Positions 4,423 through 31,106 of a stretch of 31,106 nucleotides of DNA are shown piece by piece; position 1 is the stretch's first letter; each line of letters begins with the position of its first letter. A model generated the notes under the pieces. That model saw only the letters and a list, made by a program, of their open reading frames with translations, was not told the DNA's origin and did no database searches. Source of the stretch: a virus; IMG/VR virus record IMGVR_UViG_3300048104_000416, positions 1-31,106 of that record. One strand, 5' to 3'. The translations under genes and the position numbers were made by a program.

Positions 4423-4424
4423 AC

Positions 4425-5168
4425 TTATGCTGTTTGACAAGTTGAAACAGTTAGTAATGTATCTGTGTCATTAGAGTTGAAAACAACCTTTGATCCTGAA
4501 ACATATACTGTTTGTTCGTCTTTGTCAAGTAAGCTTAAGTACTTTTTATAAACTGTTACTTCACCGTTTCCGCTTGTATCTGGATTGATTACAACGCTAA
4601 ATGATTTACCACTTACACTTACACCTGATACATCAGATTTAATGCTAAATGTTTCATCTTTATCTAGTGAAAATAGATTTTTAACTTTACCTATCATGTG
4701 AGTATCAAAGCTAAAGTCAAATTTACTATCTTCTCTTGCAAAGATTGCATCAATTTGATCTTGTGTAAGATCTTTAAAGCCAAGTGAAGGCTCTGAACAA
4801 GCTAAAGTAATTTCTAGCTCATCATTGAAAATACGTAGCGAAGATGCTACTAATTCATTGTCGTTTTCGATGAATTCAATTTCACCTTTAATTGCATCTG
4901 CATCAAAGTGCTTAATAGCTTCGATTACTTTGTTACCTTCAAAGAATGCAATTTTCATTTCTTTGTCAGTTTTTGGCCATTCTTCTACTTGAAAAATAGT
5001 ACTTACTTCTACTGAGTGATGTTTTACTGCATCTCTTTGTGGAAGATAAACTGTTGAATTAATTGTTCCATCTGCAATTTTCATGTAAATGAAAGAGTCA
5101 ATCGGTTTTACTCTGTTGATGAATGCTGTCAAAGCATGCTGGTCAATACGATCTAATTTAAGTTTCAT
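4425..5168 (-). CDS. 45: Sliding clamp gp45-like
   Basis: The processivity clamp, a trimeric ring in T4 that holds gp43 on DNA and also acts in late transcription. It has 247 residues (T4 gp45 has 228), begins MKLKLDRIDQHAL and is rich in beta strands with acidic and polar loops. The assignment relies on length, the T4-like N-terminus, fold-like pattern and immediate coupling to the polymerase C-terminal gene, because clamps have few fixed motifs. It opens a unit with its own promoter (5198-5226) behind the terminator of the outer-membrane protein gene. The clamp-loader genes 44/62 and regA, its neighbours in T4, are not in this window. Confidence 0.82.
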   Translation of the reverse strand: MKLKLDRIDQHALTAFINRVKPIDSFIYMKIADGTINSTVYLPQRDAVKHHSVEVSTIFQVEEWPKTDKEMKIAFFEGNKVIEAIKHFDADAIKGEIEFIENDNELVASSLRIFNDELEITLACSEPSLGFKDLTQDQIDAIFAREDSKFDFSFDTHMIGKVKNLFSLDKDETFSIKSDVSGVSVSGKSFSVVINPDTSGNGEVTVYKKYLSLLDKDEQTVYVSGSKVVFNSNDTDTLLTVSTCQTA

Positions 5169-17301: not shown

Positions 17302-18207
17302 TTATCCTAATTTTTTAACAGTTGCTGTTAATTTATCTAGGGATGCTTTTACATGCTCACCATAATCTGCGTGCAAATCTTCATCTGCATCTAATGGTTG
17401 CATATCTTTCCATTCGCTGTATTTAGAGATAAACTCTTCACTAGCATCTACGATTTTCTTAATATCTGATTTTGTGTATGACTTTCCGTAATATTGAGTT
17501 GGATCTACATCCATTCTTGCAGTCTCATCTGTAAATGGATTTTTAATGTCTACACCTTCGAAATCAAATGAAAATGCTTCAAAGTTTTTTACAAATGATT
17601 CGTTTTTAGCATTCTTTTTATCTCTAGCTATTTTCTCTTTTTTTGCTTTTTTAAACTCTTCTTCTGCATCTCCTTTGCTAGCTGGAACATCTCCTGAACC
17701 ATCTGCGCCATCTACTGGTAAAGCAACCGGTCCCATACCTCCCATATTGGAAGGTGTAATATTCTCTAAAAATCTTTTAAAAGAATGTGATTTAGAACTT
17801 TCATTTAAGTCTATGCCGTCCCAGTCCCATTTGTAACCTTTACCGTCTGCACCATTACCTAAGTAACCATACATTCCTTTTTTGAAACCATCAAAGAAAA
17901 TAGCTGCACCGTATTCGCCAACGTCTTCTTTAGCATATTCTCTTGCAGCATCTTCGTCCATTGCCTGCACATGAACACTGCCTTCTTCAAACGAAAATAA
18001 AATACCTTTCTTAAAGTCTATTGAATCTCCAACCCACCATGTATCATTATCCATGTCATATGAATCGTCTTCATCTTCTTCGTCACCAAACATATCAAAG
18101 TCCGGCCATTCAGATATACCGTAGTTTAATGCTTCTTTTTCTGTTTTAAAAAAATTAATCTGAGCGTAATCTCCAGATCTTTCTCTTACGTAAAATATCT
18201 TTGCCAT
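17302..18207 (-). CDS. Putative virion-associated protein with internal targeting-like peptides, 301 aa
   Basis: I do not recognise a family. The N-terminal 130 residues form a compact acidic domain (EEDEDDSYDMDNDTWW, then GYKWDWDGID). A DLNE|SSKSHSFKRFLEN segment (residues 133-149) follows. Its LNE|S matches the (I/L)xE rule of T4 prohead protease and its F-x-x-F-L core resembles capsid-targeting peptides. Then comes a flexible Gly/Ala/Asp linker (NMGGMGPVALP), a charged helix, a second similar segment (NESFVKNFEAF, 202-212) and a helical C-terminal domain. This composition fits a head-internal protein processed during maturation. It begins 34 nt after the stop of the 655-aa gene and is the last gene before a strong terminator. 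Confidence 0.7.
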   Translation of the reverse strand: MAKIFYVRERSGDYAQINFFKTEKEALNYGISEWPDFDMFGDEEDEDDSYDMDNDTWWVGDSIDFKKGILFSFEEGSVHVQAMDEDAAREYAKEDVGEYGAAIFFDGFKKGMYGYLGNGADGKGYKWDWDGIDLNESSKSHSFKRFLENITPSNMGGMGPVALPVDGADGSGDVPASKGDAEEEFKKAKKEKIARDKKNAKNESFVKNFEAFSFDFEGVDIKNPFTDETARMDVDPTQYYGKSYTKSDIKKIVDASEEFISKYSEWKDMQPLDADEDLHADYGEHVKASLDKLTATVKKLG

Positions 18208-18210
18208 TGT

Positions 18211-18240
18211 TTAGTGTGCTTTGTTAAGAAACTCTTCAAA
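18211..18240 (-). other. In-frame FEEFLNKAH segment directly after the 655-aa stop codon
   Basis: Directly after the TAA at 18241-18243 the same frame reads FEEFLNKAH and then TAA. This nine-residue tail has the same F-E-x-F-(I/L/V) core as the C-termini FEQFVKKD and FEQFINKD of two nearby proteins. It may be a targeting tail lost by a nonsense change, or added by readthrough. Confidence 0.55.
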
Positions 18241-20208
18241 TTACCAAGCGTAATCGAATGTTTTGATTTTGTTAATTCTATCTTTAATAGATTTAGCATA
18301 GTTCTTAGCTTCTCTTTCATACCATCTTTCACCCGAACCATATTTCTTTTCAGACTCTTCAGATCTTGCTACATAATCACAGTATCTTGAGTAATCGTCT
18401 AAAATAGATGACATGTGTGAAGAAGCATCTTTTAATTTTACAGTAGAACCTCTTTTGTTTTTACCAATATAGATTTCTCCGTATTCTGTTGTCTGTCCAG
18501 CTTTTAAACCGTCTTGAATTTGTTTAGCTAATTCATCGATTGCATCTGAAACCATCTTATCTAGTGGCAAAGCAGCCGCCTTGGTAGCTAAGATTTGCAT
18601 GTATCTGTTTTTGTTTTCTTGTTTGAAGTCTTTATCAGATTTGAATGCAATCGCACCAGATTTAGCACTTGATCTTTCAGATCTTTTGTTTTCTGTAGAA
18701 TATTTTTGTTGTAATAGATCTACGTTGATAACAACTGCTCTATCTGAAACTTCTGCAATTCTCTTTACATTATAAAGACCAGTTCCGCCCCATCCTTTAT
18801 ACTTCTTAGAAATACCAATAGTATCACTTGAATTATTAGGAGTAGTTTTTAAAGTTCTGTCTCTGTCTCTGCTAGAATATCTACTAGTCCATGTGTTTGT
18901 GTAAAATTCATTACCTCCACTTGCTACAGCTAATAAGTAACCTCCACCTGGGATAACCTTGTTACTACCATACCCATCATTAGGTGCATATGGATTATCT
19001 TTCTCATTATCTGAGATATAGAAAACAATAGTGTTTGTTTGTTTTGCCTTGTACGCTGTCATTGGATCAGTATCAATAAGATCTTCATCTTGTACTTTAT
19101 CTAAAGCAACTTTAGTTTTACCGTAAAATGCACCAGATAACGCTTTATCAACTTTACCTCTAGTGTTTGTAAATAACTTAGAAAGTTTCATTGAACCAAA
19201 AGCTTCGTTTAGGTTTTCTACGAAAGATGAAAAAGATTCATGAACAAAAGAAACTGATTCAAATTGTAAAGAATCGATTCTGATATTCATTGAAGCCATT
19301 TCCATTGGTTCAGTGCCATCTTCATAGTCCACTGTTGCAAATAAATCTCCAAGTTCTATGATTTTAAATCTTCCAGGAAATCTAACGTTTTCTCCGTAAA
19401 CAGTTTCGCCGTTCTTAATTGCTTTTTGAGCTTTCTTTAATTTAGGGTGTACACCTTCATTTACGGTTTCAGCTGATTCAAATTGTAATTTATCAATAGC
19501 AATGTTCATTGAAGCCATTTCCATTGGTTCAGTACCATCTTCATAGTCTACAGTAGCCATATTACCTGCTTTATTAAAAGATAAAATCTTAAATCTTCCA
19601 GGGAATCTGATGTTTTCACCATAAACTGTTTCGCCTTTTTCGACGGCCTTTATGGCTTTCTTAATTTTAGGGCTAATACCTTCGTTTACGTCTTCTTCGT
19701 TTTCTTTAATTAGAACTGGATATGTTTTACCTTCGAATTCAAATTCTTTCTTGCCTTCTTCCTTTGCCTTTTTAGCAGCAGCGACGAATTTTCTACCTTC
19801 TTTTACCGGGTAAGTTTCACCATCAAATTCGAATTCTTTATCTCCGTTTTCTTTGGCCTTTCTTACAGCATCACCGAAAGCATTACCTTCTTCAACTTCG
19901 TCTTCTTTAACTTCTTCAGAAACGTTGATGTTATTTAAAATTCTTCTTCCAAATTTAGAAAGTGAGATACCGCCTTCAGCTACATTAAAGTATTTTGAAT
20001 TTCTTCTTAACCATCTGCCTGAATCGCTAGACATTTCTTTTAAAATGTTGTCAAACTCTTCTTGAGTTAGTGTGCCATCAGCGATGGCTTCTAAAACTTT
20101 ATTTCTAATTTTAGCATGTGTGCCTGCAGTTAACGCAGGGTGGTTTTCAGTATATCTTCTCTTTAAAGTGATTTTACCTTCACCGATGAATTCTTCGAAT
20201 TTTTTCAT
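18241..20208 (-). CDS. Putative packaged head polyprotein with duplicated modules, 655 aa
   Basis: The N-terminus MKKFEEFIGE|G closely resembles the T4 capsid-targeting peptide MKTYQEFIAE|A, including the (I/L)xE cleavage rule. Residues 108-135 and 138-165 are two copies of a 30-residue unit (KEFEFxGxTYPV). Residues 174-246 and 249-318 are two copies of a 73-residue unit (GETVYGEN, RFPGRFKI, DYEDGTEPMEMASMNI), like small SH3/KOW-type barrels. Each of the larger copies begins with VNE|G, a possible protease site. A third targeting-like peptide (SFSSFVENLNE|A) is at 324-336. The C-terminal 315 residues are one domain that I do not recognise (GGGYLLAVASGG, KGWGGTGLYNVKR). I infer a precursor of internal head proteins. 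T4-like homologues may be annotated only as structural or hypothetical. Confidence 0.75.
   Translation of the reverse strand: MKKFEEFIGEGKITLKRRYTENHPALTAGTHAKIRNKVLEAIADGTLTQEEFDNILKEMSSDSGRWLRRNSKYFNVAEGGISLSKFGRRILNNINVSEEVKEDEVEEGNAFGDAVRKAKENGDKEFEFDGETYPVKEGRKFVAAAKKAKEEGKKEFEFEGKTYPVLIKENEEDVNEGISPKIKKAIKAVEKGETVYGENIRFPGRFKILSFNKAGNMATVDYEDGTEPMEMASMNIAIDKLQFESAETVNEGVHPKLKKAQKAIKNGETVYGENVRFPGRFKIIELGDLFATVDYEDGTEPMEMASMNIRIDSLQFESVSFVHESFSSFVENLNEAFGSMKLSKLFTNTRGKVDKALSGAFYGKTKVALDKVQDEDLIDTDPMTAYKAKQTNTIVFYISDNEKDNPYAPNDGYGSNKVIPGGGYLLAVASGGNEFYTNTWTSRYSSRDRDRTLKTTPNNSSDTIGISKKYKGWGGTGLYNVKRIAEVSDRAVVINVDLLQQKYSTENKRSERSSAKSGAIAFKSDKDFKQENKNRYMQILATKAAALPLDKMVSDAIDELAKQIQDGLKAGQTTEYGEIYIGKNKRGSTVKLKDASSHMSSILDDYSRYCDYVARSEESEKKYGSGERWYEREAKNYAKSIKDRINKIKTFDYAW
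19255..19689 (-). repeat. Tandem duplication of a 73-codon module inside the 655-aa gene
   Basis: Two copies, 19471-19689 and 19255-19464, offset by 219 bp (73 codons). Blocks are nearly identical at DNA level, for example the stretches coding DYEDGTEPMEMASMN. Both copies open with a VNE|G-type site. Confidence 0.9.
19714..19887 (-). repeat. Tandem duplication of a 30-codon unit inside the 655-aa gene
   Basis: Copies at 19804-19887 and 19714-19797 encode KAKExGxKEFEFxGxTYPV. The two are clearly related but more diverged at DNA level than the 73-codon pair. Confidence 0.85.
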
Positions 20209-20245
20209 TTTTAAATTTCTATATTTTATATTCTTATACTATATA

Positions 20246-22090
20246 TTAGTCTTTCTTCACAAACTGTTCAAATGTCATAAATTTAGACTCTGCAACACCC
20301 ATAGAAACCTCTAATTTTGTCCTTAATTCATCGTACATTCCGTGAATTGGCTTAGGTGTTAATTTCTTAAATAATTTCTCATCTCCATCTAACATAGCAT
20401 TCCTGACTTGTGTTGCAGAAATATTCTTGCCAGATCTTGGAATTTCAAATAAACCAAAATCTTCTCTACAATTTAAAGATTCTCTGTATTCTGGTTTATC
20501 AACTTGATATGAGTATGTTTTTAATCTGTCTGTTCCTGTTCCCCAAAGTACTGGTTCATAACCATCGGCTCTCATTGCGTTAAACATATAATCTATTGCT
20601 GCTCTATCTAAAATATAAACTTTCTCAATTGGATATTTAGATTTTAGTTTATTAAGCATTGCTAATTGAGTTTCTTCGTCATATGGTCTTTTAAACGCAT
20701 CTTCTGCTTTTTTGGTTTTTGACTTGATTAATAAAACAACAACAGGATGTCCGTTTTGTTTACTAATAGTATCTATAACTTTAGCATGTCCTAATGTAAA
20801 GGGTTGGAAACGACCAACAAACATGTTTACTGGTTTTTTGCCTTGATCAGGATACTTAACAGTTAACCCTTCCATAATAGGGCTCACGTCTCCTGATAAT
20901 TTTTGATTAATTAAATATCTTTTAAAATCCATGACGTCTTTTTCGTTTGTTTTACCCATTACAATAGTCTCTATTTCTTCAACTACTTCGTTGATCTGAG
21001 ACAATAGATCTGAGTTAATAATATCTGTTTCTTTAGATCTTTTCTTTCTAAAAGATCCTAATGTAATTTTAAAAAGCTCTGATAAGACTTTGTTTTGTAT
21101 AAGAGATAACGTCTTTTCGTTAGACATAAATGCAGTATTTAGTTCGAAGTTTTCCCCTTCTGCAAAATCTGCTGAATCAAAATCTGCGCCTACGTACTTC
21201 GTAGCATGTTTCTCAACATATGCGTTAAATACAGAAGACATTAATTCAACATATCTAAGATCTGCATCTTCTTCTTTTAATTCTATATCTGATAAATCAA
21301 ATGCTACTAAAAATTCTACTAAATCTAATATAGAGATTTGATACATGTCGGATGGTTTTCTAACCGGCAATTGTTCTCTATCAAATCTTTCTAATTTAAA
21401 ACTTTTTGGATTTCTACCTTCATAAAAATTTACTACTAAGGCATCTATCTCTTTGTCTAAATTTAGGTTTAGTGCAGACTTGTTTCTACCATTGTCAAAT
21501 ATGCGATAAATGTCTCTAGTAAATGATCTGTCTTTGTACTTGATCTTAAATGCTTCTTCACCTAAAGACAATAAGTTTATCAATTCTTCTTTTTGATTAG
21601 ATGCTAATTGTCCTTGGAACAAAAGAGGTAATTCTTGTACTTCTAATTTCTTTGCCCACTTATCTAAAACCTTAGGATCTCTAATAACTCTTTTAACTTT
21701 AGAAGGATCGCTAGGATTTAATACTTGAATATGTGTTAATATAAGATTGTTTTTTGGCAATAGATCATATTCAATGTCTATTGTCTTTTTGTCTATCATG
21801 TAGTCAAACCCAAACTTCCAATCAAGTGGCATATCATTTAATATTTCAGCTGAAATTGTTTTAAAATGCTTTATACCATTTTCATAATACTTAACAAGCG
21901 TTCTATCAACTTTATTCATGGCAGTTTTGGAACCACTTTTAAAGAAATCAAATTCTCCAACATCAACTCTCTTTACATGAAAGCTTGAAGCTTGTACCTT
22001 TTCATGTACAACACAAATATTGTCTAATAACTTTTTAAAGTCATTAACGTTTGTAGATTCAAAATATGTTTTTAGGTTTTGTAGTGCCAT
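20246..22090 (-). CDS. Nucleotidyltransferase (NMNAT/HldE-like) fused to a large N-terminal region, 614 aa
   Basis: Residues 423-590 are an HxGH-superfamily adenylyltransferase: GRFQPFTLGH at 426-435 and ISATQVR at 557-563, the latter a clear ISxTxxR motif. The first His of HxGH is replaced by Thr (archaeal NMN adenylyltransferases have GRFQPFHNGH). Such enzymes transfer AMP or CMP to NMN, sugar phosphates or similar. Residues 1-420 are not recognised with confidence; FGFDYMID (93-100) and EGLTVKYPD (407-415) resemble ligase motifs III and IV. The C-terminus VAE|SKFMTFEQFVKKD looks like a cleavable targeting tail. The gene lies 12 nt after the KxDG protein. NAD metabolism, sugar activation or RNA/protein modification after injection are possible roles. 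Confidence 0.82.
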   Translation of the reverse strand: MALQNLKTYFESTNVNDFKKLLDNICVVHEKVQASSFHVKRVDVGEFDFFKSGSKTAMNKVDRTLVKYYENGIKHFKTISAEILNDMPLDWKFGFDYMIDKKTIDIEYDLLPKNNLILTHIQVLNPSDPSKVKRVIRDPKVLDKWAKKLEVQELPLLFQGQLASNQKEELINLLSLGEEAFKIKYKDRSFTRDIYRIFDNGRNKSALNLNLDKEIDALVVNFYEGRNPKSFKLERFDREQLPVRKPSDMYQISILDLVEFLVAFDLSDIELKEEDADLRYVELMSSVFNAYVEKHATKYVGADFDSADFAEGENFELNTAFMSNEKTLSLIQNKVLSELFKITLGSFRKKRSKETDIINSDLLSQINEVVEEIETIVMGKTNEKDVMDFKRYLINQKLSGDVSPIMEGLTVKYPDQGKKPVNMFVGRFQPFTLGHAKVIDTISKQNGHPVVVLLIKSKTKKAEDAFKRPYDEETQLAMLNKLKSKYPIEKVYILDRAAIDYMFNAMRADGYEPVLWGTGTDRLKTYSYQVDKPEYRESLNCREDFGLFEIPRSGKNISATQVRNAMLDGDEKLFKKLTPKPIHGMYDELRTKLEVSMGVAESKFMTFEQFVKKD

Positions 22091-22102
22091 ATTATTTTTG
22101 TT

Positions 22103-23374
22103 TTATCTGCCGTATTTAATAATACCCATTAATTGGTTAATAGCAGCAAAAGTACCAGTTAGTTTATATGTATGTCCTTTGTATTTGAAAACCAAGCCTT
22201 CGGTAGGTATAATAGATTCTATTCCACCGATTCTTTCTAATCTTGCAAGCTCAGCTTCTACTTTTTTAATTTGATCAATTCCACCTGATTTTTTAATCTT
22301 AGCAGCTTCAGTTCTAATTTGATTATGCAACCTTTGCATCTCTTGATCTGGAGAAGCAGCAACAAAATTTGATGCATTTTTAAGAATTATAGATCCTAAT
22401 TCTAAGAATAGATCTTCGAATGGTCTAATGTTTTCTTTATATTTCTTCTTAACGTCTTCTTTGTCAAACTTCTTAATTAACGATGCCTTATCTTTACCAA
22501 GCTCTTTGTCTAATGATCTTAAATTTAAAGTCTTCTTATCTCCATACGCCCATCTTAATAATAAACCCTCTTTGTGGTTTTGCTCTAAATCAGGGAAATT
22601 TGCATCTATAGTTTCTCTCCACCACATTTCGTGATACCTAGAAACTTCGTCAGCATCTGTTAAATTATAACGATCTCTTAATGCTTCTACTTGTTTAATG
22701 AATTTTGCTTTGTTTGCCTCGAAGTCAATATCTTTAGCTATCTTTAATACTTGAGGTGGAATTATAGTAAATGTTTTTTGTACATCTTTCTTTAATTCTT
22801 TTAATGCCCCTACTAGTTCTGTTGCTAAATTTTGAGTTCCTGTTTGATTTCCTTCACCGTCAGTTTCAACTATGTTGTGAAATTGGATAACATCTCTGTC
22901 GTAATATATTACGTTAGGGTTTTTAGAATAGATTAATTCCATGTTAACGAAATTTAATCCGTTTGCAAACATTGATTGATCCTTAAGTTTTGGTAAAGCA
23001 TCAGCTAAATCTTTTGCTGCGAAAATATATGTTTCTTCTACTAATTTAGACGCGTGACCAGTAAACATCTTAATGATACCGTTTAGGTCTATCGGATTTT
23101 TCATTTGACCCTTATTTCTAGCAAATAGTGTTTCACCATCTTTAACGGTTGCAAATAGGTTTTGACCATCTGTTTTTTCAGTAGGATCTTCTTCAAAGTT
23201 AAGTTCTCCGCTTAATCCAGATTCTATAAGCTTTTTAAAATCACCAAAGGTTAGCGACTTGTTGTCAAATGGGTGTGACATGTGGCCGGCTGCTCCACCT
23301 TCTAATATTAAATTAGATTCATTAAAGTGAATGCGCTCTGTTAAAAAGGTGTTGAAATTAGTATAAATCTTCAT
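22103..23374 (-). CDS. DNA/RNA ligase-type nucleotidyltransferase-like protein (DUF6267-like), 423 aa
   Basis: The nucleotidyl-lysine motif I is visible as K67-T-D-G70 (EKTDGQNLFA), followed by FARNKG, a motif III-like NMELIY (144-149) and motif IV EGLVFK at 392-397, with KLTGT nearby as motif V. Between motifs III and IV are about 240 residues of helical insertion, more than in standard ligases. The N-terminus MKIYTNFNTFLTE and the LILE|GGAAGHM segment (22-31) look like a capsid-targeting leader and prohead-protease site. I recall similar EGGAAGHM..KTDGQN proteins in T4-like cyanophages (DUF6267). Ligase or other nucleotidyl-transfer activity is inferred from motifs; whether it seals nucleic acid is unknown. 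A terminator lies just before it. Confidence 0.8.
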   Translation of the reverse strand: MKIYTNFNTFLTERIHFNESNLILEGGAAGHMSHPFDNKSLTFGDFKKLIESGLSGELNFEEDPTEKTDGQNLFATVKDGETLFARNKGQMKNPIDLNGIIKMFTGHASKLVEETYIFAAKDLADALPKLKDQSMFANGLNFVNMELIYSKNPNVIYYDRDVIQFHNIVETDGEGNQTGTQNLATELVGALKELKKDVQKTFTIIPPQVLKIAKDIDFEANKAKFIKQVEALRDRYNLTDADEVSRYHEMWWRETIDANFPDLEQNHKEGLLLRWAYGDKKTLNLRSLDKELGKDKASLIKKFDKEDVKKKYKENIRPFEDLFLELGSIILKNASNFVAASPDQEMQRLHNQIRTEAAKIKKSGGIDQIKKVEAELARLERIGGIESIIPTEGLVFKYKGHTYKLTGTFAAINQLMGIIKYGR

Positions 23375-23385
23375 ATCGTTTAAAG

Positions 23386-23410
23386 TAAAAAATAGAGAGT
23401 GTTACCCTCT
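23386..23410 (-). terminator. Weak intrinsic terminator after the 571-aa gene
   Basis: A 7-bp stem (23394-23400 with 23404-23410, one G-U pair) with a 3-nt loop, followed on the minus strand by ATTTTTTAC. It lies between the 571-aa and 423-aa genes and may reduce, not abolish, read-through. Confidence 0.6.
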
Positions 23411-23426
23411 AGTTTATATATTGTTT

Positions 23427-25142
23427 TTACCCCAGTGACGATTTCAATGCACCAACCATAGCACCGTAATCTCCCGAGTTTTTAGAAATTAAACCATCTA
23501 CAACTTCTTGAGCCTTAGCTTCATCAAAATCATCGCCGAATGCCTTTTGTAATACTGAGAATGCATACTCTTTAAATTCTTCGTCTGAAGTTACTTCAGC
23601 TTCGTTTAAAGCTTTAACTTTAATTTTAAAAGTTTCGTTAGATTCTTCAATATATTCTCCTAATTCTGGGTCACCCCAACCATCATCAGATGCTAATACT
23701 GATTGTAGATCTTCTCTTGAACCTGTTAATTCAACTTCTGGCCATCCGCTCGGTCCGTTATTATCAATGATCTCCATTGTAACTTTATGTTTCTTAAGTA
23801 ATTTTTTTAATACTTTAGATCCAGGATCTGTTGCATCCATAACAACCGAAGCTTCTAATACACCTTCTGCATATTTAATGGTTTCAAACATTCTAAATTC
23901 AAAGTTGTCTTTTATTTCACCTTCAAAGAAAGAGTTAAATCTATCTAGTAAATCTTGTCCCATTTTAGCAAAGCCACACTGCTCTAAGAATAATGCAGTT
24001 CCTTCTGCAATACCTTGACCTGACCATCCAGCTGCATTTGAAATTCTAGAATATTCTTGTTCTAATGCATCTTTAATTCTTGTTGATCCAATGTTTACTG
24101 ACATTTTGCCTAAACCATCAACTATTACTGGAATAGATCCTATATTACCTTTAATAGCACCTGCACATTTTTCTCTTTCTCTATGGAAATTAGCATCTTC
24201 CATTGAATCTAAGAATAATTTTTTAATTGCACCTAATAAAGTTTTCTTATCGTTAGATGCACCAATTGCATTTAATTTAGAGAATAAAATTTTATTGTAT
24301 TGAGTTACTACTTTTTTAGCATCTCTCTTACCTTCTACTTTAATAGCTTCATTAACTACTGATTCATTACACATTGAAAATAATTCTTGTGCAATCTTTT
24401 TTGCTTTAGAACCTTTATGTCCATAAGATTCAACTGTATCTAAAGCATCTTCCATTTCCATGCCATGTAATTCTCCCATGTCTCCTCCTCTTTCATCTAA
24501 AAGATCCTGTAAGATATTTTCAGCTTCTGATTCATTAACTACTGATTCAAATGCTGGTTTTAAATCTTTATCACCTGCATAAATATCAGCCATTAACCAC
24601 TTTCCTGATTTTTCATCAAAAAGGTAAATAAATTCTGCACCGGCTTTATCGCCTGCAGTTGAGATATATCTGTCAATGTTTTTAACATTACCTTTCATAT
24701 TATCTGTATCGCCATAGTAGTTCATTCCGCTTGGATCAGATTCTAAACCTGAATTATCTCCGTTTTTAAGAACCATGTTTAGTGGTGAACCACCTTTTAA
24801 ATATGTTTTCTTGATAAGCGGTAACATGTTTTCTGGATAAGAATCATAGTGAGTATATACTGATTCAATATTACCTCTTTTGTCGATTCTACCAAATTGA
24901 CCTCTAGTTCCCTCAGCAATTAAAAATGCCTCGTTTACTTCGATGCCTTTTAGTTTTGAAAAGAATTCTGGTTTTTGTTCTTCAGATAACTCTTTAATAG
25001 AAGTAACATTAAATTCTGATAGTAGCGCCTTAAAATTGCTAGCTTCAACTTCTCTTTTTGCGTTTTGCTCTTCTTGTAGTTGAGCTTTTTCGTTTTCGGT
25101 TTTGACCTTAGCAAATTGCTCAAATGATTTTAGTTTTTCCAT
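23427..25142 (-). CDS. Putative packaged head polyprotein, 571 aa
   Basis: The N-terminus MEKLKSFEQFAKVKTENEK carries the FEQF core of the targeting peptides. A charged helix leads to a first domain at about 76-200 (YTHYDSYPENMLPLIKK, GGSPLNMVL, FIYLFDEKSGKWLMADIY). Further regions are separated by sites matching (I/L/V)xE followed by a small residue: EVNE71|A, VVNE204|S, VVNE265|A and ALNE514|A. The C-terminal 57 residues (EEFKEYAFSVLQKAFGDDFD, then GDYGAMVGAL) form a small helical domain of a type that I associate with T4-like head-internal proteins. No enzyme motif is seen. I read it as a precursor cut into several internal proteins by a gp21-type protease, which is not in this window. Confidence 0.7.
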   Translation of the reverse strand: MEKLKSFEQFAKVKTENEKAQLQEEQNAKREVEASNFKALLSEFNVTSIKELSEEQKPEFFSKLKGIEVNEAFLIAEGTRGQFGRIDKRGNIESVYTHYDSYPENMLPLIKKTYLKGGSPLNMVLKNGDNSGLESDPSGMNYYGDTDNMKGNVKNIDRYISTAGDKAGAEFIYLFDEKSGKWLMADIYAGDKDLKPAFESVVNESEAENILQDLLDERGGDMGELHGMEMEDALDTVESYGHKGSKAKKIAQELFSMCNESVVNEAIKVEGKRDAKKVVTQYNKILFSKLNAIGASNDKKTLLGAIKKLFLDSMEDANFHREREKCAGAIKGNIGSIPVIVDGLGKMSVNIGSTRIKDALEQEYSRISNAAGWSGQGIAEGTALFLEQCGFAKMGQDLLDRFNSFFEGEIKDNFEFRMFETIKYAEGVLEASVVMDATDPGSKVLKKLLKKHKVTMEIIDNNGPSGWPEVELTGSREDLQSVLASDDGWGDPELGEYIEESNETFKIKVKALNEAEVTSDEEFKEYAFSVLQKAFGDDFDEAKAQEVVDGLISKNSGDYGAMVGALKSSLG

Positions 25143-25175
25143 TATGATTTTATTTGTTTCATTATGATTATTTTA

Positions 25176-26684
25176 TTATATATCTCCTTCAAATGATACA
25201 TTTTTTATATCGTATTTAAACTTCTGTTCTTTATAGATCTTTTGGCGTGCTTTAGCATGACGAATAAGGTAATTATCCCAGTCGGGTGATGATAAATCAT
25301 CTACAAAATCTATTATGTTTACACTGTCCTTTGACTTATGTTGTCTTAATCCTCTACCAATAGATTGTCTAATTATAACTTCCGATTTAAACGATTCTGT
25401 AAAGAAGATGTTATGTATTTTCTTAATCGAGATTCCTGTTGAAAACGTACCATAAGATGCAACGATAACCACTTCTTCGTTTGCTTCCATTTTCTTTTTA
25501 TATTCTTCTCTAATATCTTTATCAGTTCCACCATCGACATAGTATATGGTCTTATCACTTTCTTGCCTAAGTTTAGCATATATCTTTTTACCGTGCTCAA
25601 TACGGTGAAAAAGGACAAGACTATTACCGCGTACTCTGGAAATAATGTTAGTAACGAAGTTGAGACGGCCCTCTGAATTAATAATATAGTTTTGTTCAAA
25701 TTTAAAAACATCTTTACTTTCATATCTGTTTTGTGACATTTCTCTAAATGCGTCCTTTGCTGATTGAGGTGCATAATCCATCTTAATTACCTTAACTTTA
25801 CATTTTGCAATATGTCCTTCGTTTTGTAGGAAATTTGCAGAAACCTCAGTGATCAACGGACCAGTGTATGCCATTAGTGTAAGTCTATCTATTGTGCCTG
25901 CCTTCGGAATAGTTCCTGATAGCCCATACCTGTATTTGGCATTTACGCACTTTTGTAGTATAGTTTTAATGGATGTAGATTTAGCCTTATGTGTTTCATC
26001 AATAATCACAGCGTCAAATTGTTCAAAGTACTCTTTATTCTTTTTTACTAGTGATTGATATGTGCCTATTACTACATTTCTACCTGGTCTTATTTTCTGG
26101 CCACTGTATATTTGTTGTACTTTTATATCTACTGAGTTTCTGTAGTTATAGTCTAAGAAATCTTCACTCGCTTGTACCACCAATGAAACATTAGGTACAA
26201 TAAAAAGTATCTTTTCTGATTTCTTTTTTTCTAGCTGATATGCTACTGTTAAAAATGAAATTAGAGTTTTACCCGCAGATGTTGCAAGTTCAGAGAGGCA
26301 CTTTCTGAATTTAAGAATATTGAATGCTGCTTCTATTTGATAATCCCTAGGTGTAATTTCTGATTTTTCGAAGAACTTTAATGCCCATTCTGTAAACTCT
26401 TCCTGGTTAATAGTGGTGTCAAATAAGACTGTTATTCCATTTAGTTTAAGTTCATATCCGTAATCTTTACAGATAGTCATAACTTCTCTCCAGAGTCCGG
26501 AAGGAATCCATTTGTCATCTTTAATATAAGATATGTAGCCGTCCCATAATCCCTTCTTAACTAGTGGATTAAATCGCCATGACTCAATTCTCTTGTTAAG
26601 AGAGATGTTTAATTGTTCCAACTCCATTTCAGTTGCATCGTCAATTCTAAGCAACTGTTCATTTTCTGTTAAACTAAGCTCCAC
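25176..26684 (-). CDS. uvsW: UvsW-type SF2 DNA/RNA helicase
   Basis: A 502-residue superfamily 2 helicase matching T4 UvsW, which unwinds R-loops, recombination intermediates and stalled forks and shifts replication from origin- to recombination-dependent mode. Motif Q-like RDYQ is at 113-116, Walker A SAGKT at 136-140, DETH box at 229-232, motif III-like SGT (YGLSGTIPK) and motif VI QSIGRGLRQ near the C-terminus. The N-terminal 100 residues match the UvsW DNA-binding region in position. It follows the 140-aa coiled-coil gene by 24 nt and precedes the virion block, so it ends the gp32-primase-helicase group. Confidence 0.93.
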   Translation of the reverse strand: MELSLTENEQLLRIDDATEMELEQLNISLNKRIESWRFNPLVKKGLWDGYISYIKDDKWIPSGLWREVMTICKDYGYELKLNGITVLFDTTINQEEFTEWALKFFEKSEITPRDYQIEAAFNILKFRKCLSELATSAGKTLISFLTVAYQLEKKKSEKILFIVPNVSLVVQASEDFLDYNYRNSVDIKVQQIYSGQKIRPGRNVVIGTYQSLVKKNKEYFEQFDAVIIDETHKAKSTSIKTILQKCVNAKYRYGLSGTIPKAGTIDRLTLMAYTGPLITEVSANFLQNEGHIAKCKVKVIKMDYAPQSAKDAFREMSQNRYESKDVFKFEQNYIINSEGRLNFVTNIISRVRGNSLVLFHRIEHGKKIYAKLRQESDKTIYYVDGGTDKDIREEYKKKMEANEEVVIVASYGTFSTGISIKKIHNIFFTESFKSEVIIRQSIGRGLRQHKSKDSVNIIDFVDDLSSPDWDNYLIRHAKARQKIYKEQKFKYDIKNVSFEGDI

Positions 26685-26708
26685 ATTTAATGGGCTTTTT
26701 TATTTTAG

Positions 26709-27131
26709 TTACAGGTCTTTAATTGCCAACCTGTTTCTAACGGCAAATCCCATATTATCTAGGGTCTTTACCGATTCTTTCATAAAATCTAATTGATTTT
26801 CTAAAAGAGATAATTTTGTGTGCTCTTGCACTAGATCGTTTTCTATAAAACGCTCTTTTTGTTTTTCACCAAGTTTGTAATCATATTCGTAATATCTTAA
26901 ATATGCTTCTTTCCACCTGGAATTTATATTGTTTTTTTGTTCTTTAATTTTAGTATTTAAATATGCAATCTGTTCTACCATGGTTTGTCTAGTTGACAAT
27001 ATACCCGATATAGTTTCTTCCATTGCATTAATAGATCTTAGAGATCTAGCAAGATCTTTAATATTTTGTGACCAACTAGCCCTTTGAGAACTTAACTTTT
27101 CGTCTAATGCTAATATTTTTTCTTTACTCAT
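26709..27131 (-). CDS. Coiled-coil protein, 140 aa
   Basis: A helical 140-residue protein with long charged heptad-like stretches (LDEKLSSQRASWSQNIKDLARSL and TKIKEQKNNIN; later KLSLLENQLDFMKESVKTLDN). It has a basic C-terminus (VRNRLAIKDL). It begins right after the stop of the 75-aa gene (TAA-ATG) and lies between primase and UvsW. A replisome scaffold or loader role might be considered, but no motif supports it. T4 gp59 (helicase loader) differs in sequence as far as I can tell. Confidence 0.7.
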   Translation of the reverse strand: MSKEKILALDEKLSSQRASWSQNIKDLARSLRSINAMEETISGILSTRQTMVEQIAYLNTKIKEQKNNINSRWKEAYLRYYEYDYKLGEKQKERFIENDLVQEHTKLSLLENQLDFMKESVKTLDNMGFAVRNRLAIKDL

Positions 27132-27359
27132 TTAAAATAGTGATTTTTTGTTGGGATTAGACTTAATGTGTTTAGAAGTGGTTTGTCTCTTCTTAAATTT
27201 AGGTTTACTAAATTCCATGTCAGGTGTTTCTGGCTCATCAGGAATTTCTGCTTCGTTAAAATCAACTAGCAATTTAAACCCCTTAAAGCGGTCTCTGTCA
27301 TTATAAAAATCTTCTAGGTTATTATCAACCATATTTGTAATTTCTTCTAAATGTACCAT
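27132..27359 (-). CDS. Small hypothetical protein, 75 aa
   Basis: A 75-residue protein with an acidic N-terminal half (NLEDFYNDRDRF, EAEIPDEPETPDMEF) and a strongly basic C-terminal tail (KPKFKKRQTTSKHIK). It looks mostly disordered, like an adaptor. With the ATG at 27359 it overlaps the end of primase by 13 nt. The ATG at 27332 would avoid overlap and also fits. It belongs to the gp32-gp61-uvsW unit. Not recognised. Confidence 0.6.
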   Translation of the reverse strand: MVHLEEITNMVDNNLEDFYNDRDRFKGFKLLVDFNEAEIPDEPETPDMEFSKPKFKKRQTTSKHIKSNPNKKSLF

Positions 27360-28426
27360 AGATCTAATTGACTTGATGTAAAATAATTATTAATGTTTTT
27401 AAATGCGTCAGACTTTATTTCAAAACATTTAATCATCAAATCATTAAGATCTTTGATATTATATGTATCTAAATTACTGTCCTTTAGAAATTTAGACCAC
27501 ATAAATACGGGTCTGCCTTTCTTTAGTTTTTCTATCATTTTTTTCTTACCTGTTTCGTCATTGTCGAACATATATCTTACAGTTTCTATTTCATCAAATT
27601 CATCTGTAGATCTTCCAGCGGTAGCTAATGCCAGTGAGTTTGACATAAACTTAGCATCTAGTGGTCCTTCGAACAATGTAACTGGCCTTTGAAATGTAAC
27701 TTTCATAATGCCAAACAGTGTAGAAATCTTTGCAAGCTGATTAGATTCTGATTCACTTATCTGAAGAGGCTGACCCATTTCTTCATATAGCTTTGGTAAA
27801 TCATATGAAAGGTATCTTTGCCCATATCCTTTCATCCTTCTTGTTTGAGCGCCAATGATTTTATTATCTGTACTAAGATTTAAAATCCAAAGGCGATGTT
27901 CTTTTGCTGAATATAAAAATTCATCTAATTTTTTATGCAACAATCTATCTTTAAGCTGAAACCATATCCAATCACCCGGTTCAATTGACTTAGCTTTAAA
28001 CTTAGCTTTAAATGTATCAATGCCTATTGCGTGTTTTTGTATATCTTCAAACAGGGTAGGTTTTAATACATTCTCTGTACGCACCTGTAATTTGTTCTGT
28101 TGAATATAGTCAATTACTGTAAAAGAATCTCCACTTTTACTCAAGCGAATATCATGATCTTTTAAAAAGGTGTGTAAATTAGTATGATGGCCACAGTTAT
28201 AGCAGTGATATTGTAGTGTATCCCAAAATAAATTACCACGTTTTGCAGTATCATCTTTGTGGGAATCACCACAATAAGGGCATGCTAAGGTTATTCGCCC
28301 ATGCATGCCCTTTAGTGATTGCTTATTAGGATTTGTATGTGATTGAGTAGTTACTTGTATAAGTGCGTACTCTATCCTTTCCTTAAGCTCTTGTGTAAGC
28401 TCTATGTTATTAGATGTCGAGGTCAT
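27347..28426 (-). CDS. 61: DNA primase, T4 gp61-like
   Basis: Makes RNA primers for lagging-strand synthesis together with gp41 helicase. It has 359 residues (T4 gp61 has 342). The N-terminal zinc ribbon has C49xxC52 (ACPYCGDSH) and C75xxC78 (YHCYNCGHH). The TOPRIM domain has the glutamate in LFEGPLDAKF and the DxD in YMFDNDETGKK. The ATG at 28426 is within the last codons of gp32 (17-nt overlap, different frame), and no nearer in-frame Met exists, so the overlap is probably real and couples the two genes. Confidence 0.94.
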   Translation of the reverse strand: MTSTSNNIELTQELKERIEYALIQVTTQSHTNPNKQSLKGMHGRITLACPYCGDSHKDDTAKRGNLFWDTLQYHCYNCGHHTNLHTFLKDHDIRLSKSGDSFTVIDYIQQNKLQVRTENVLKPTLFEDIQKHAIGIDTFKAKFKAKSIEPGDWIWFQLKDRLLHKKLDEFLYSAKEHRLWILNLSTDNKIIGAQTRRMKGYGQRYLSYDLPKLYEEMGQPLQISESESNQLAKISTLFGIMKVTFQRPVTLFEGPLDAKFMSNSLALATAGRSTDEFDEIETVRYMFDNDETGKKKMIEKLKKGRPVFMWSKFLKDSNLDTYNIKDLNDLMIKCFEIKSDAFKNINNYFTSSQLDLWYI

Positions 28427-29351
28427 TCAAGAAAGAATCAAGATCATCATCTGTAGAAACAGCTGAAGTTGGAGATTCTGTCGTTGAAGTTGTCGCGACT
28501 GGAGCTGCAGCTTCAACTACAGTTGTTGCCGTAGTGTTATTAGAAGTAGTAGCTTTTTTAGGAGTAGACTTAGCACTGCTTGTTACTGCTGAAATAGAAT
28601 CACCAGGGTTTAAGTACATGCGAAGTACATCGTTTACAAAAGCTCTAGTGTCTTCGTCCCATGCCTTATAGTCATAGTTTACAAGAGATGGAGCGTTTTC
28701 TAGCTCAGCCTTAATTGCCGTCATAGTTTCTTTAGTTCTTTCTGCTGGAGCATCGCCCATTAGAATAGCAGAAGTACTTGCAGAAAACTTAGACTTGTCA
28801 TAGTTATTGTACTCACCTTGACGAGTAATGATCAATTCGAAGTTCTTACCTTCAAACAAGTCAAACACTTGTGTTGGCTCACCAAAATCTGGCTTCAATT
28901 CTGCATCGATCTTTTCTTTGATCTTGTAACCGAATTTGAAGATTTTGTAAGTACCTTCTAGTTCAGGATTTTGTGGATCCTTAATAATTTTAATTAGAGA
29001 ATAGTACTGTTGACGTCTTTTTAGTTTCTCTGATGACTTGCGATCTACTGCTGAATCTGATTTTCTCAGTTTCCAGAATACATCTGCAATTGGGCATTTT
29101 TCACCGATTGAAGATGGTGAATCTACCAATTTACCGTCACCACTAGAGTTTGTTAGCCAGTGTACGTATTTTTGAATTAGAGAATTTCTTGGATTCTCTG
29201 GATTTGGAACGAAGCGGATTAGTGCTTTATAAGTTCCGTCTTTGCCGTCATCGGCTGTTGGTTTGTAAACTTCGTTTACTGTTGTTCTTTCGGGCTGATG
29301 CGTTTCTACGTCTTCTACGCCCAAGTTAAAAATGTCAAATGATTCGCTCAT
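28410..29351 (-). CDS. 32: Single-stranded DNA-binding protein gp32, without the zinc site
   Basis: Coats ssDNA at the fork and recruits UvsX, gp61 and other partners. It has 313 residues (T4 gp32 has 301). The core shows the gp32 pattern: ENPRNSLIQKYVHWL, CPIADVFWKLRK, RRQQYYSLIKIIKDPQNPELEGTYKIFKFGYKI and QGEYNNYDKSKF (fragments). A Ser/Thr/Ala linker leads to an acidic tail (DDDLDSFLNDLDI), the usual protein-interaction tail. T4 gp32 binds zinc through three Cys and one His. Here only one cysteine exists in the whole protein, so the zinc site is lost. It has a TGAAAC-type promoter 60-90 nt upstream. Confidence 0.92.
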   Translation of the reverse strand: MSESFDIFNLGVEDVETHQPERTTVNEVYKPTADDGKDGTYKALIRFVPNPENPRNSLIQKYVHWLTNSSGDGKLVDSPSSIGEKCPIADVFWKLRKSDSAVDRKSSEKLKRRQQYYSLIKIIKDPQNPELEGTYKIFKFGYKIKEKIDAELKPDFGEPTQVFDLFEGKNFELIITRQGEYNNYDKSKFSASTSAILMGDAPAERTKETMTAIKAELENAPSLVNYDYKAWDEDTRAFVNDVLRMYLNPGDSISAVTSSAKSTPKKATTSNNTTATTVVEAAAPVATTSTTESPTSAVSTDDDLDSFLNDLDI

Positions 29352-29411
29352 AATACCTTTAAATTGTTTAATTGTTTAATACTTGAAATTACTTTAATGT
29401 TCTTTCGTTAC

Positions 29412-29440
29412 CTTATAATGTATAAATAAAAAATGTTTCA
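29412..29440 (-). promoter_or_regulatory. Promoter of the gp32-gp61-uvsW unit (TGAAAC-N17-TATAAG)
   Basis: Minus strand: TGAAAC at 29440-29435, 17 nt, TATAAG at 29417-29412. The -35 box includes the TGA stop codon of the 56-aa ORF. The expected start gives a leader of about 55 nt before gp32. Confidence 0.7.
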
Positions 29441-29608
29441 ACTAAATTTTAAAACTGCTCCACTTGGTTCCTTCCATCTATTGTTCTCTAACTTAATCAG
29501 TCCTGACTTGTTGAGTAACTCTGACGCTTCCTTTTCAGTAAGCTGGTTCGCTGCAACCATTTTATTGAGAATCTCCACTAGACGAAGGTAGTCTACAGTA
29601 ATTAACAT
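29438..29608 (-). CDS. Small hypothetical protein, 56 aa
   Basis: A 56-residue ORF from the ATG at 29608 to the TGA at 29438, placed between two promoters of the same type. It begins MLITVDYLRLVEILN and ends GAVLKFS. A helix-turn-helix-like middle (NQLTEKEASELLNKSGLIKLENNRW) suggests a small winged helix or DNA-binding fold (inference from pattern only). A plausible regulator or accessory protein; not recognised. Confidence 0.6.
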   Translation of the reverse strand: MLITVDYLRLVEILNKMVAANQLTEKEASELLNKSGLIKLENNRWKEPSGAVLKFS

Positions 29609-29635
29609 GTAATTTCTACTTTAATTATTATACTT

Positions 29636-29664
29636 ATTATATATCTTAGTTCTCTATTGTTTCA
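29636..29664 (-). promoter_or_regulatory. Promoter of the 56-aa ORF (TGAAAC-N17-TATAAT)
   Basis: Minus strand: TGAAAC at 29664-29659, 17 nt, TATAAT at 29641-29636. A second TATAAT follows a few bases downstream. The rest of 29609-29754 is AT-rich and shows no other gene or clear terminator. Confidence 0.7.
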
Positions 29665-29754
29665 TGGAGACTAAATTAAAAATTTATTTCAAAAAAATGA
29701 AACAGTTTTTCTACACGTGCATATAACAAATGTTATTTAAGTCTGGAGGAAAGA

Positions 29755-30408
29755 TTAGGTGGAGGGGTTTGAAACGTATGTAACCAAGAAATATGCATCG
29801 ACTAGGTCGTCTAACGGCTTCGGGATCTTTTTCCCAATTTCAAGATCTTTAATCATAGAATGCAGGGGACTTTGAGCCAAGATTGGGTCATCGTTCACAT
29901 TTTGTTGATATGCCTCAAACAACTGAAGCTTATTCATATTACCTTTGCCAGCAAACTTCTTAATTGTGGTAGGTGCAACAGTTAATATATCTTTAACGTG
30001 AAGTTGAGAAATCATCTGTTCTTTAAGGATCGCGGCACCTGCGGCCATATCAATTATATTGTTTGTTCCCATTTTAGAACCATAAGAAGTTCCTTCAAAT
30101 GCAATAATATAATCATTCTTAGTTTTAGTAATTCCTAAAATAATATTGATAATTTGATCAGCAGTTGCCATATACCTTCTAACCTTTGCTAACTCATTCT
30201 TAGAATAATCACCAAACGTAGTTTTCCAATCGGGTTGGTATACTAATGTAACGTCACTTAGTAGGCTAATATCTTCCTGAAGTTTTTGTTCCTTCTTAGT
30301 ACCTAAACCTGGTTTAACGTAACTTATATAATGGTGTGTATTGGATTCTGTATTAAAAATACAAATACCTGGGGAATTTAAAGAAAAATCTACTGAAACG
30401 TAATTCAT
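29755..30408 (-). CDS. RuvC-like endonuclease (RNase H fold)
   Basis: A 217-residue protein with the RuvC-type RNase H layout. D7 is in the first strand (YVSVDFSLNSPGI), E105 in the fourth (IIAFEGTSYG), and D201/D204 in the last helix (KPLDDLVDAYFL). These are the expected acidic metal ligands of Holliday-junction resolvases. T4 itself resolves junctions with the unrelated endonuclease VII, so this would be a functional replacement or addition (inference). It begins immediately after the stop of the 122-aa gene (TAA-ATG). Confidence 0.83.
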   Translation of the reverse strand: MNYVSVDFSLNSPGICIFNTESNTHHYISYVKPGLGTKKEQKLQEDISLLSDVTLVYQPDWKTTFGDYSKNELAKVRRYMATADQIINIILGITKTKNDYIIAFEGTSYGSKMGTNNIIDMAAGAAILKEQMISQLHVKDILTVAPTTIKKFAGKGNMNKLQLFEAYQQNVNDDPILAQSPLHSMIKDLEIGKKIPKPLDDLVDAYFLVTYVSNPST

Positions 30409-30777
30409 TTAGAATCTTTTACCAAGACTAGCTCCTAATGCAGCACCTACAAGTCTTGAGGTTAACAAATCAAATAATATACCTTTTTGTATACCTAATA
30501 CCTTAGCTAATAGTTTACCAACTGATTTTCCTAAAGCAAATCCAGTTAAACCACCAATAATAGAACCTAAAAGACCTTCATTAGTCATCTCTTCATTTAG
30601 TTTGTCTAAATTATAAGTACCGTCTTCGTTTTGATATGTTTTACAAAACTCTTCAATAGCGGCATCTATTTTAGATTCTAATTCAGGAGTCCACTCAGAC
30701 TGTAGATTTTCTTTAAGAACATCCATGTCATTTTCTGTGATCTTTTCCTCTACTAAGTATTTATTAAATGTTTTCAT
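30409..30777 (-). CDS. Putative packaged glycine-zipper membrane protein, 122 aa
   Basis: The N-terminus MKTFNKYLVE|E is almost a copy of the T4 capsid-targeting peptide pattern MKTYQEFIAE|A. An acidic helical middle follows (EWTPELESKIDAAIEEF), and then from about residue 68 a glycine-zipper hydrophobic region (GLLGSIIGGLTGFALGKSVGKLL and RLVGAALGASLGKRF). Glycine zippers pack helices in membranes. I infer a head-packaged protein that might act on the host membrane during ejection, but this is not proven. The other option is an ordinary small phage membrane protein whose N-terminus matches by chance. Confidence 0.7.
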   Translation of the reverse strand: MKTFNKYLVEEKITENDMDVLKENLQSEWTPELESKIDAAIEEFCKTYQNEDGTYNLDKLNEEMTNEGLLGSIIGGLTGFALGKSVGKLLAKVLGIQKGILFDLLTSRLVGAALGASLGKRF

Positions 30778-30803
30778 ATTGTATATATCTTTGATTGTTG
30801 AGC

Positions 30804-31106
30804 TTAGTCTTTATTAATAAATTGTTCAAATAACAACACGTGACTCAGTATTTTCTTAGATTCGTGGATTTCATTATCTTCATTAGAGTAAAATTTATAT
30901 CCTTTACCTTCAACAAACCCATCTTTATTGAATTTAACATAGCTTCCGCCACTTATAGGCTTCTTAAAGTAAGATGAACATCTAGTGTTTAAATTTAATA
31001 ATTCTTTTTTAGCTTTATTCTCAGACATGCTCTCGCAGAAAATTCTAGCACTATGAAAACCACTAGCTACGCGAAGACCTGAAGAAACATCTGCATGAAT
31101 ACTTTG
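30804..31106 (-). CDS. C-terminal part of a putative packaged protein (5' end outside window)
   Basis: The frame is open from the window edge to the stop at 30804 (100 codons). An ATG at 31028 exists, but the 26 codons before it are also open and read like coding sequence (DVSSGLRVASGFHSARIFCES), so I expect the true start beyond 31106. The segment includes a short beta-rich region (GGSYVKFNKDGFVEGKGYKF) and ends IHE|SKKILSHVLLFEQFINKD (split here only for reading: IHE|S site, then FEQFINKD). That tail has the same form as the end of the 614-aa protein. Function is unknown. Confidence 0.65.
   Translation of the reverse strand, partial: QSIHADVSSGLRVASGFHSARIFCESMSENKAKKELLNLNTRCSSYFKKPISGGSYVKFNKDGFVEGKGYKFYSNEDNEIHESKKILSHVLLFEQFINKD

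Follow-up and report, generated by a model that had tools for sequence, protein, structure and literature searches.

Probable capsid-targeting tags of the T4 type, proposed to work at either end of a protein or inside it, in a marine group of T4-like phages

The DNA analyzed here, a stretch of 31,106 bases from an IMG/VR virus record (IMGVR_UViG_3300048104_000416; hereafter the window), encodes a segment of a T4-like phage in which several proteins carry a short motif with two aromatic residues three positions apart. We consider it probable, based on comparisons of sequences, that this motif is a tag of the same type as the capsid-targeting sequence (CTS) of T4, that it can stand at any position in a protein and that its cleavage sites lie on the side of the cargo. 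An example of the form that opens proteins is MKHIKLFEEFINE|A, in which the bar, here and below, marks the predicted cut. In the mechanism we propose, the pair [FY]xx[FY] would draw a protein into the prohead core, as its equivalence with residues 4 and 7 of the T4 CTS suggests, and the encoded S77 prohead protease would then cut after Glu, with loss of the tag. At an N-terminus the tag itself would supply the Glu (F[ILV]NE|cargo), at a C-terminus the tag would be free of Glu and the site would lie upstream (cargo-E|S-linker-FxxF-end), and at an internal tag sites on both sides would, in some families, free two cargoes from one tag. Many of the proteins packaged in this manner would probably be injected with the DNA. 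T4-type targeting and cleavage had been proposed in a preliminary description of the window and is still the best-supported reading, given the performance on T4 of a profile that was blind to T4, the S77 protease and a matching site in the capsid protein.

The comparison set consisted of 15 related contigs with 1994 proteins of at least 60 aa in 539 clusters (genes were called by the longest-ATG rule and proteins shorter than 60 aa were removed ahead of clustering). A tag profile was trained on 77 N-termini from 29 clusters of the related contigs, with no T4 sequence included, and was used to scan these proteins near their termini and elsewhere. At a score of at least 11, 143 of the 1994 proteins, belonging to 51 clusters, were tagged at the N-terminus, a wider distribution than was first seen in the preliminary description, whose quoted peptides were all present in the window. 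The same threshold gave 66 internal and 6 C-terminal matches, versus 2 N-terminal, 16 internal and 0 C-terminal matches in shuffled proteins; at a score of at least 12 the corresponding numbers were 140, 55 and 1 versus 0, 5 and 0. Chance or AT-rich composition as the source of the motif class was ruled out by these shuffles. Independent of the profile, 22 of the 539 cluster representatives had F-x-x-F-[ILVM] beginning at residue 7 (0.23 expected), and 39 had it at one of the first 21 start positions (4.8 expected); 8 had it near the C-terminus versus 4.8 expected, which is not a clear enrichment. The N-terminal excess, set beside a C-terminal count close to chance, indicates a general signal at the N-terminus and one limited to a few families at the C-terminus, and the case for a C-terminal tag would accordingly be one of conservation within particular families and not of class enrichment. 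Since the training tags all end in Glu, the frequency of this residue was determined with a pattern in which it is optional, and Glu occurred at +6 in 89 of 110 N-terminal tags. In its narrow DNA form the tag was present in at least 120 stretches in IMG/VR. A 212,342-base IMG/VR contig (G001) matches the window on its minus strand with 98.8% identity; the nine N-terminal tags counted in it at a score of at least 11 are probably too low a number because its reading frames are broken. Within the window itself, all N-terminal scores of open reading frames (ORFs) 1-21 stayed below 8 and their scores at any position below 10, and the highest tag score among the six ORFs from 25176 to 30408 was 4.8.

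When the T4-blind profile was applied to T4 (255 ORFs), the internal proteins IPIII and IPII were ranked at the top (18.5 each), followed by the product of gene 61.1 (16.5), with the next score being 9.3. Gene 61.1 (54 aa; L337, 18966-19130) opens MKTFKEFIKE|D and its product is, from this sequence, predicted to be a head-packaged protein of T4 itself. The setting of the capsid genes is also T4-like. A Peptidase_S77 prohead protease was identified, in every case above the cut-off, in 14 of 20 related contigs, among them G001, where it lies outside the 31-kb window, and gp23 was found in 14 of the 20 (13 above the cut-off). In the 12 contigs listed, gp23 comes after the protease and the capsid protein carries, at or near its start, [IL]NE[AS]EI, which is homologous to the T4 sequence FLTE|AEI; in 11 of these 12 a small tagged protein (cl41), which reached a score of at least 11 in 9 of 13 members, sits between the portal and the protease. 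This order resembles the T4 order 20-67-68-21-22-23. Potential cleavage sites of the form [ILV]NE[ASG], counted outside the first 22 residues, numbered 37 in tagged proteins versus 5.3 expected, 169 versus 83.7 in untagged proteins, 10 versus 1.3 in core-like clusters and 20 versus 3.2 in the protease family, and the control patterns [ILV]NK and [ILV]ND stayed near 1.1 in tagged proteins. The protease itself is 615-820 aa where its ORF is full (e.g., G006 75716-77698), versus 212 aa for T4 gp21, and its family is rich in [ILV]xE[ASG] (166 versus 57.8 expected), as a fused, cut-up scaffold would be; no separate gp22 was seen ahead of gp23, save one small ORF in some contigs. For Sphingomonas phage PAU, a phage deposited in a culture collection, N-terminal sequencing cited in PMC5646251 showed that 520 of the 585 residues of the capsid protein remain in its mature form; cleavage after LME-64 would yield 521, so that the sequencing agrees with an LxE site to within one residue.

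The tagged window proteins described next, with the features inside them, are on the minus strand. The N-terminal aromatic pair, with its spacing of three, that characterizes the 51 clusters is found in four window proteins. The 655-aa protein (18241..20208) starts with MKKFEEFIGE|G (20179..20208; score 17.9) and has repeated domains preceded by possible VNE|G cleavage sites (residues 174-176, 19681..19689, and residues 249-251, 19456..19464); a tblastn search with it against phage records gave no match. The 423-aa protein (22103..23374) starts with MKIYTNFNTFLTE|R (23336..23374; score 16.3), and its Phe10 and Glu13 are invariant across 13 sequences, after which comes a variable linker. The tag of the 122-aa protein (30409..30777), MKTFNKYLVE|E (30748..30777; score 15.6), has the T4 length of 10 residues. 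An invariant TNE|G (residues 65-68, 30574..30585), which is a possible cleavage site, precedes the glycine-rich second half of this protein, which is glycine-zipper-like (Pfam Gly-zipper_Omp, sub-threshold at 16.5 of 25 bits); a cut there would release a 55-residue peptide that looks membrane-active. The (I/L)xE cleavage rule of the preliminary description thus held for the N-termini of these three proteins, whose tags end in [IL]xE with I, L and L, respectively, at P3, but not upstream of internal tags, where enrichment was seen only for E before S or N. The fourth protein (571 aa, 23427..25142), also proposed to be targeted and cut, opens MEKLKSFEQF (25113..25142; score 9.4): the targeting residues are kept, the [IL]xE with its cleavage Glu is missing, and four [VL]NE|[AS] sites occur further in (residues 69, 202, 263 and 512).

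Two window proteins depart from the N-terminal position of the T4 CTS by carrying the tag at the C-terminus. The 614-aa protein (20246..22090) comprises an RNA-ligase-2-like N-terminal part, a nucleotidyltransferase domain and a tail, VAE|SKFMTFEQFVKKD (residues 599-614, 20249..20296; profile score 11.5), in which a possible site and a linker are followed by a tag without Glu. A protein cut by the window edge (30804..31106; the C-terminal 100 aa are present, of 152 aa in G001) ends in IHE|SKKILSHVLLFEQFINKD (30807..30869; score 17.7), again with a possible upstream site and a Glu-less tag; neither tail has [IL]xE within the tag. Relatives of the 614-aa protein were found at 80 loci, of which 70 entered the main counts and ten were read separately (L004, L005, L006, L044 and L075 were tagged, L081 was untagged, and L056, L077, L079 and L080 run off contig ends so that the tail is unreadable). 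T[FY]xxF stood a few residues from the end in 74 of the 76 readable relatives (69 of 70 in the main set), and in 44 of the 45 distinct tails among the first 70. The tail is kept down to ~50% identity between relatives while the linker ahead of it varies in length and sequence, and an alignment of 29 relatives showed Thr606 and Phe610 to be invariant and Phe607 nearly so. Conservation at the level of the DNA was ruled out, as synonymous codons vary (ACA 36, ACG 12, ACT 8 and ACC 13; TTT 36, TTC 32 and TAT 1). Upstream of the tag, 57 of 70 relatives have ES, for which stretches drawn at random from these proteins give an expectation of 0.107, and 69 of 70 have E with S, Q, A or T after it; Glu at +6 was present in 0 of 69 tags of this family. 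The family of the edge-truncated protein (8 distinct sequences from 10 loci, one of them partial) likewise has the aromatic pair, no Glu and an upstream ES. In the structural model of the 614-aa protein (mean predicted local distance difference test score, pLDDT, 83.6), the chain closes with a short helix at residues 607-613, modeled with low confidence (~55).

The division of labor within the T4 CTS offers an explanation for this pattern. In a review of T4 genetics, residues 4 and 7 are described as mattering mainly for targeting and residues 8 and 10 for processing, and Asp at position 10 as blocking processing and not targeting (PMC9026906). As positions 4 and 7 correspond to the aromatic pair and position 10 to the Glu, the C-terminal tag keeps the targeting part and drops the cutting part; a Glu would be needless there, with nothing downstream to be freed. 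The natural loss of Glu with retention of the aromatics is an independent evolutionary test of what T4 mutagenesis had suggested.

Internal tags were counted at a score of at least 14 and at least 40 residues from the protein start, and were detected in 24 proteins of 8 clusters. Ten shuffles gave 2.5 on average (0 to 5), and the matches in three of the 24 proteins, which belong to clusters 105 and 8, appear fortuitous. In the window, the internal copies noted in the preliminary description are degenerate, and it is at the corresponding place in relatives that they are strong. The 301-aa protein (17302..18207) has SHSFKRFLE at residues 140-148 (17764..17790), with a possible LNE|S site upstream (residues 134-137, 17797..17808), and its best profile score anywhere was only 1.3, versus 15.5 and 17.6 for the corresponding copies in G003 and G008. 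In the 655-aa protein, VHE|SFSSFVENLNE|A (residues 322-336, 19201..19245), a degenerate tag with a possible site on each side, scored 8.2 in a shifted register, versus 16.4, 16.4, 17.5 and 20.1 for copies in G016, G017 and G018. With clusters 105 and 8 left out of the flank test (3 of 26 tags), E before S or N was present upstream of 13 of the 15 internal tags outside clusters 43 and 191 (0.21 expected), or of 13 of 23 when all were counted. These counts support two-sided excision for some families and not for the group containing DUF3008 (Pfam matches of 42.0 and 41.0 bits, cut-off 24), a domain on which a literature search found nothing.

Evidence that cargo moves between positions came from pairs of related proteins. 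A 163-aa protein of contig G004 that starts with the tag corresponds to the second half of the 301-aa protein, with 77% identity over 166 columns. A free 148-aa protein that starts with the tag in G013 is found as a 98% identical copy behind a DUF3008 protein in G007, with the tag at the joint, and the end of a 652-aa protein of G017 matches a 156-aa protein of G016 (94% identity over 151 aa). DUF3008 carriers resemble one another as far as the tag (52-63% in three pairs that were compared), no mutual match was found between the parts behind the tag in the four carriers compared, and in two phages the DUF3008 protein stops at the tag. The proposal that a tag works from either end or from inside a protein is therefore backed by comparative evidence, namely the conserved tails and these changes of cargo position. 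As the comparisons show, the tag is a junction at which domains are joined and unrelated cargoes can be swapped, and each genome would thereby come to have a set of head-packaged proteins. We lean, by a modest margin over even chances, toward the stronger proposal that the two aromatics suffice for loading from any position, that one internal tag loads two cargoes and that the tag is a joint for the exchange of cargo, in which case the head of each phage would hold a changing set of ready-made enzymes for takeover and repair.

A number of observations weigh against the reading of the motif as a capsid-targeting tag that works from any position. The divergent tag of T4 IPI was missed by the profile (3.9), 21 of the 110 N-terminal tags have no Glu, and the proteins behind gp23 look tagged by eye but reach a score of 11 in just 2 contigs. 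Two phages that share the capsid lineage, PTm1 and Lak-A2, were read over 50 kb each (61 ORFs and about a fifth of the genome for PTm1, 57 ORFs and about a tenth for Lak-A2) and showed no N-terminal tag there, so that universality of the tag across the lineage is not established. Among relatives of the 614-aa protein, L027, L081 and the homologue in LR756500 are without the tag, two single C-terminal tags retain Glu, and, because E[SQAT] is expected at 0.33 by chance, only ES is telling upstream of these tails. At internal tags, E[SN] was upstream of 0 of 7 in cluster 43 (the DUF3008 group), strict [ILV]xE[SANG] showed no enrichment (4 of 23, with an expectation of 0.148 for each tag), and several tags keep a Met (MKHL, MKYI), which makes an internal translation start possible there.

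An alternative explanation restricts the signal to the N-terminal motif, as in T4, and takes the C-terminal and internal copies for remnants of gene fusion or for an unrelated short motif with no role in targeting. The Met kept in several internal copies would then be the initiator of a once-free gene, and the C-terminal F-x-x-F-[ILVM] is, as a class, barely enriched (8 versus 4.8). We nevertheless judge this explanation unlikely: a remnant would decay, whereas the tail of the 614-aa family is kept in 74 of 76 relatives, to ~50% identity and behind a variable linker, a second family keeps its tail in 8 distinct sequences, and the internal tags of the 301-aa and 655-aa families have no Met ahead of them. 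Less probable again is that the motif is merely an extended recognition site of the prohead protease, with entry into the head by other means. Such a site would account for the Glu of 89 of 110 N-terminal tags and for the resemblance to the motif of the T4 gp23 maturation site AFGSFLTE|A (profile score 11.7), which is not known for targeting, but not for the absence of Glu from all 69 C-terminal tags, and the T4 mutants separate targeting (residues 4 and 7) from processing (residues 8 and 10) (PMC9026906). The slimmest chance was given to a C-terminal tail that binds the sliding clamp or another replication protein. In its favor, replication genes surround the tagged genes of the window, and short peptides at a C-terminus can serve as clamp binders; this explanation was set aside because another C-terminus, LF, fits the clamp role, and because a clamp tail would not account for the match between the tail of the 614-aa protein and the N-terminal tags. 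LF (as SLF or KLF) ends 10 of the 539 clusters (2.0 expected), one of them DNA-polymerase-like, and in the window it ends the ORFs at 3214-4440, 14341-15402 and 27132-27359 as well as their relatives; by analogy, LF is possibly a clamp-binding tail.

A different kind of alternative accepts targeting to the prohead and differs from our reading only in the later fate of the proteins, and its probability was counted inside that of the capsid-targeting reading. Here the tagged proteins would be components of head core or assembly that stay in the head or leave it without being delivered to the host. There is perhaps one chance in four of this being so: tagged proteins are present in the capsid cluster, and most tagged proteins match no family, but GNAT, NUDIX, 2H phosphoesterase and ATP-grasp enzymes are untypical of core proteins. 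Injection is thus something we infer, and some of the tagged proteins encoded in the capsid cluster may be core proteins that never enter the host.

With regard to the identity of the cargo under the capsid-targeting reading, family libraries were used to scan 74 tagged proteins with one-piece references, a selection made up of family representatives plus every member of two large clusters. Most matched no family. Domains were assigned for GNAT in up to 4, and for NUDIX, D-Ala-ligase/ATP-grasp, the 2'-5' RNA ligase superfamily and a polynucleotide-kinase PHROG in 1 each. The one in the 2'-5' RNA ligase superfamily, a tagged 185-aa protein of contig G010, matched 2_5_RNA_ligase2 (32.9 versus a cut-off of 27); its match to the Pfam anti-CBASS family Acb1 was below the cut-off (22.7 of 27 bits), and a PDB sequence search with the 2H-type protein returned nothing meaningful. 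PADLOC matches on tagged proteins were single and weak. For the N-terminal part of the 614-aa protein there was no sequence profile match, and it was the model that revealed its similarity, with Foldseek returning T4 Rnl2 (2hvr, E 1.3e-8) as the best match and the Rnl2 core 1s68 at E 2.8e-5 and a TM-score (target) of 0.54; the overall root-mean-square deviation is large because the model has several domains. The residues EK at 30-31 are invariant in 29 sequences, the Lys being, by eye only, a candidate for the nucleophile of ligase motif I, and the C-terminal domain is cytidylyltransferase-like, with a match to Pfam CTP_transf_like (33.6 bits, cut-off 21). The 423-aa protein has an invariant KTDG and is a possible RNA ligase, an identity that is not established and that we do not claim (model mean pLDDT 65.3; best match T4 RNA ligase 1, E 0.049). 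The RNA-ligase-like protein and the GNAT, NUDIX and 2H phosphoesterase proteins are likely cargo, and such cargo may act early, for example in the mending of cut tRNA or the removal of signal nucleotides.

The source of the window appears to be a marine virus of bacteria. Genes of the UvsX, replicative helicase, clamp, primase, gp32 and ribonucleotide reductase kinds were recognized by eye, and UvsW- and RuvC-like proteins were confirmed with profile searches. DNA polymerase, also recognized by eye, is in two ORFs (471 and 408 aa; 9028-10443 and 3214-4440) with ribonucleotide reductase genes between them. The named record nearest to the capsid protein of a related contig was LR756500 (50.5%), followed by Prevotella Lak phages, Tenacibaculum phages PTm1, PTm5 and pT24, Chryseobacterium MA9V phages and Sphingomonas phage PAU; judging by these relatives, the hosts of the tagged clade are probably Bacteroidota.

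If the capsid-targeting reading is true, the head-packaged proteins of this marine phage group can be read from sequence alone, and which proteins enter the host with the DNA becomes a question for a genome scan. Many uncharacterized proteins would then be active within minutes of the start of infection, possibly in opposing host defenses. A C-terminal loading tag would also extend the protein-packaging tools built on T4, which are described with the use of an N-terminal CTS.

Among known systems, the closest is the CTS of T4 IPII and IPIII, which is cut by gp21 and shares with the tag the aromatics three apart (Y4 and F7), the [IL]xE and the cut, in a phage that likewise encodes an S77 protease with a matching site in its capsid protein. 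Unlike the T4 CTS, the common form here is three residues longer (MKHIK-LFEEFINE), is spread over many unrelated families per clade, and occurs also internally and at C-termini, where it lacks Glu. Removal of a peptide from the C-terminus of a head protein has a precedent in T4 Alt, which is cut at both ends by gp21, at ITE-6 and LTE-619; the role of its C-terminal propeptide is given as unknown in PMC5694885. That propeptide was considered as a hidden C-terminal tag and found no support (best score 2.3). As they are described in the sources consulted, Alt and the giant-phage proteases are themselves cut at the C-terminus, with no established role of this in targeting. Terminal segments thought to load heads are also known as the propeptides of SPN3US and phiKZ, which are removed by a protease, and as the N-terminal signal of P1 DarB; all are described as N-terminal signals, and, unlike the tag here, the SPN3US propeptides are mostly long (111-254 residues) and the P1 Dar segments are reported without a shared consensus. 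In Sphingomonas phage PAU (L336, 90000-139900), 15 of 59 proteins, including ones annotated as internal capsid protein and scaffolding, open with MK[TS][LI]xxL[YF]E or close to it, which is an analogous tag with a shorter motif and a different aromatic spacing. Titles and abstracts in the open-licence literature, outside of which most subscription journals fall, contained no C-terminal or internal capsid-targeting sequences, and earlier descriptions of targeting concern N-terminal segments (e.g., PMC9026906 and PMC5694885, in the parts available). The N-terminal tags would therefore be further members of the known CTS kind, and the C-terminal and internal tags, as judged from their placement, would represent a new form of it.

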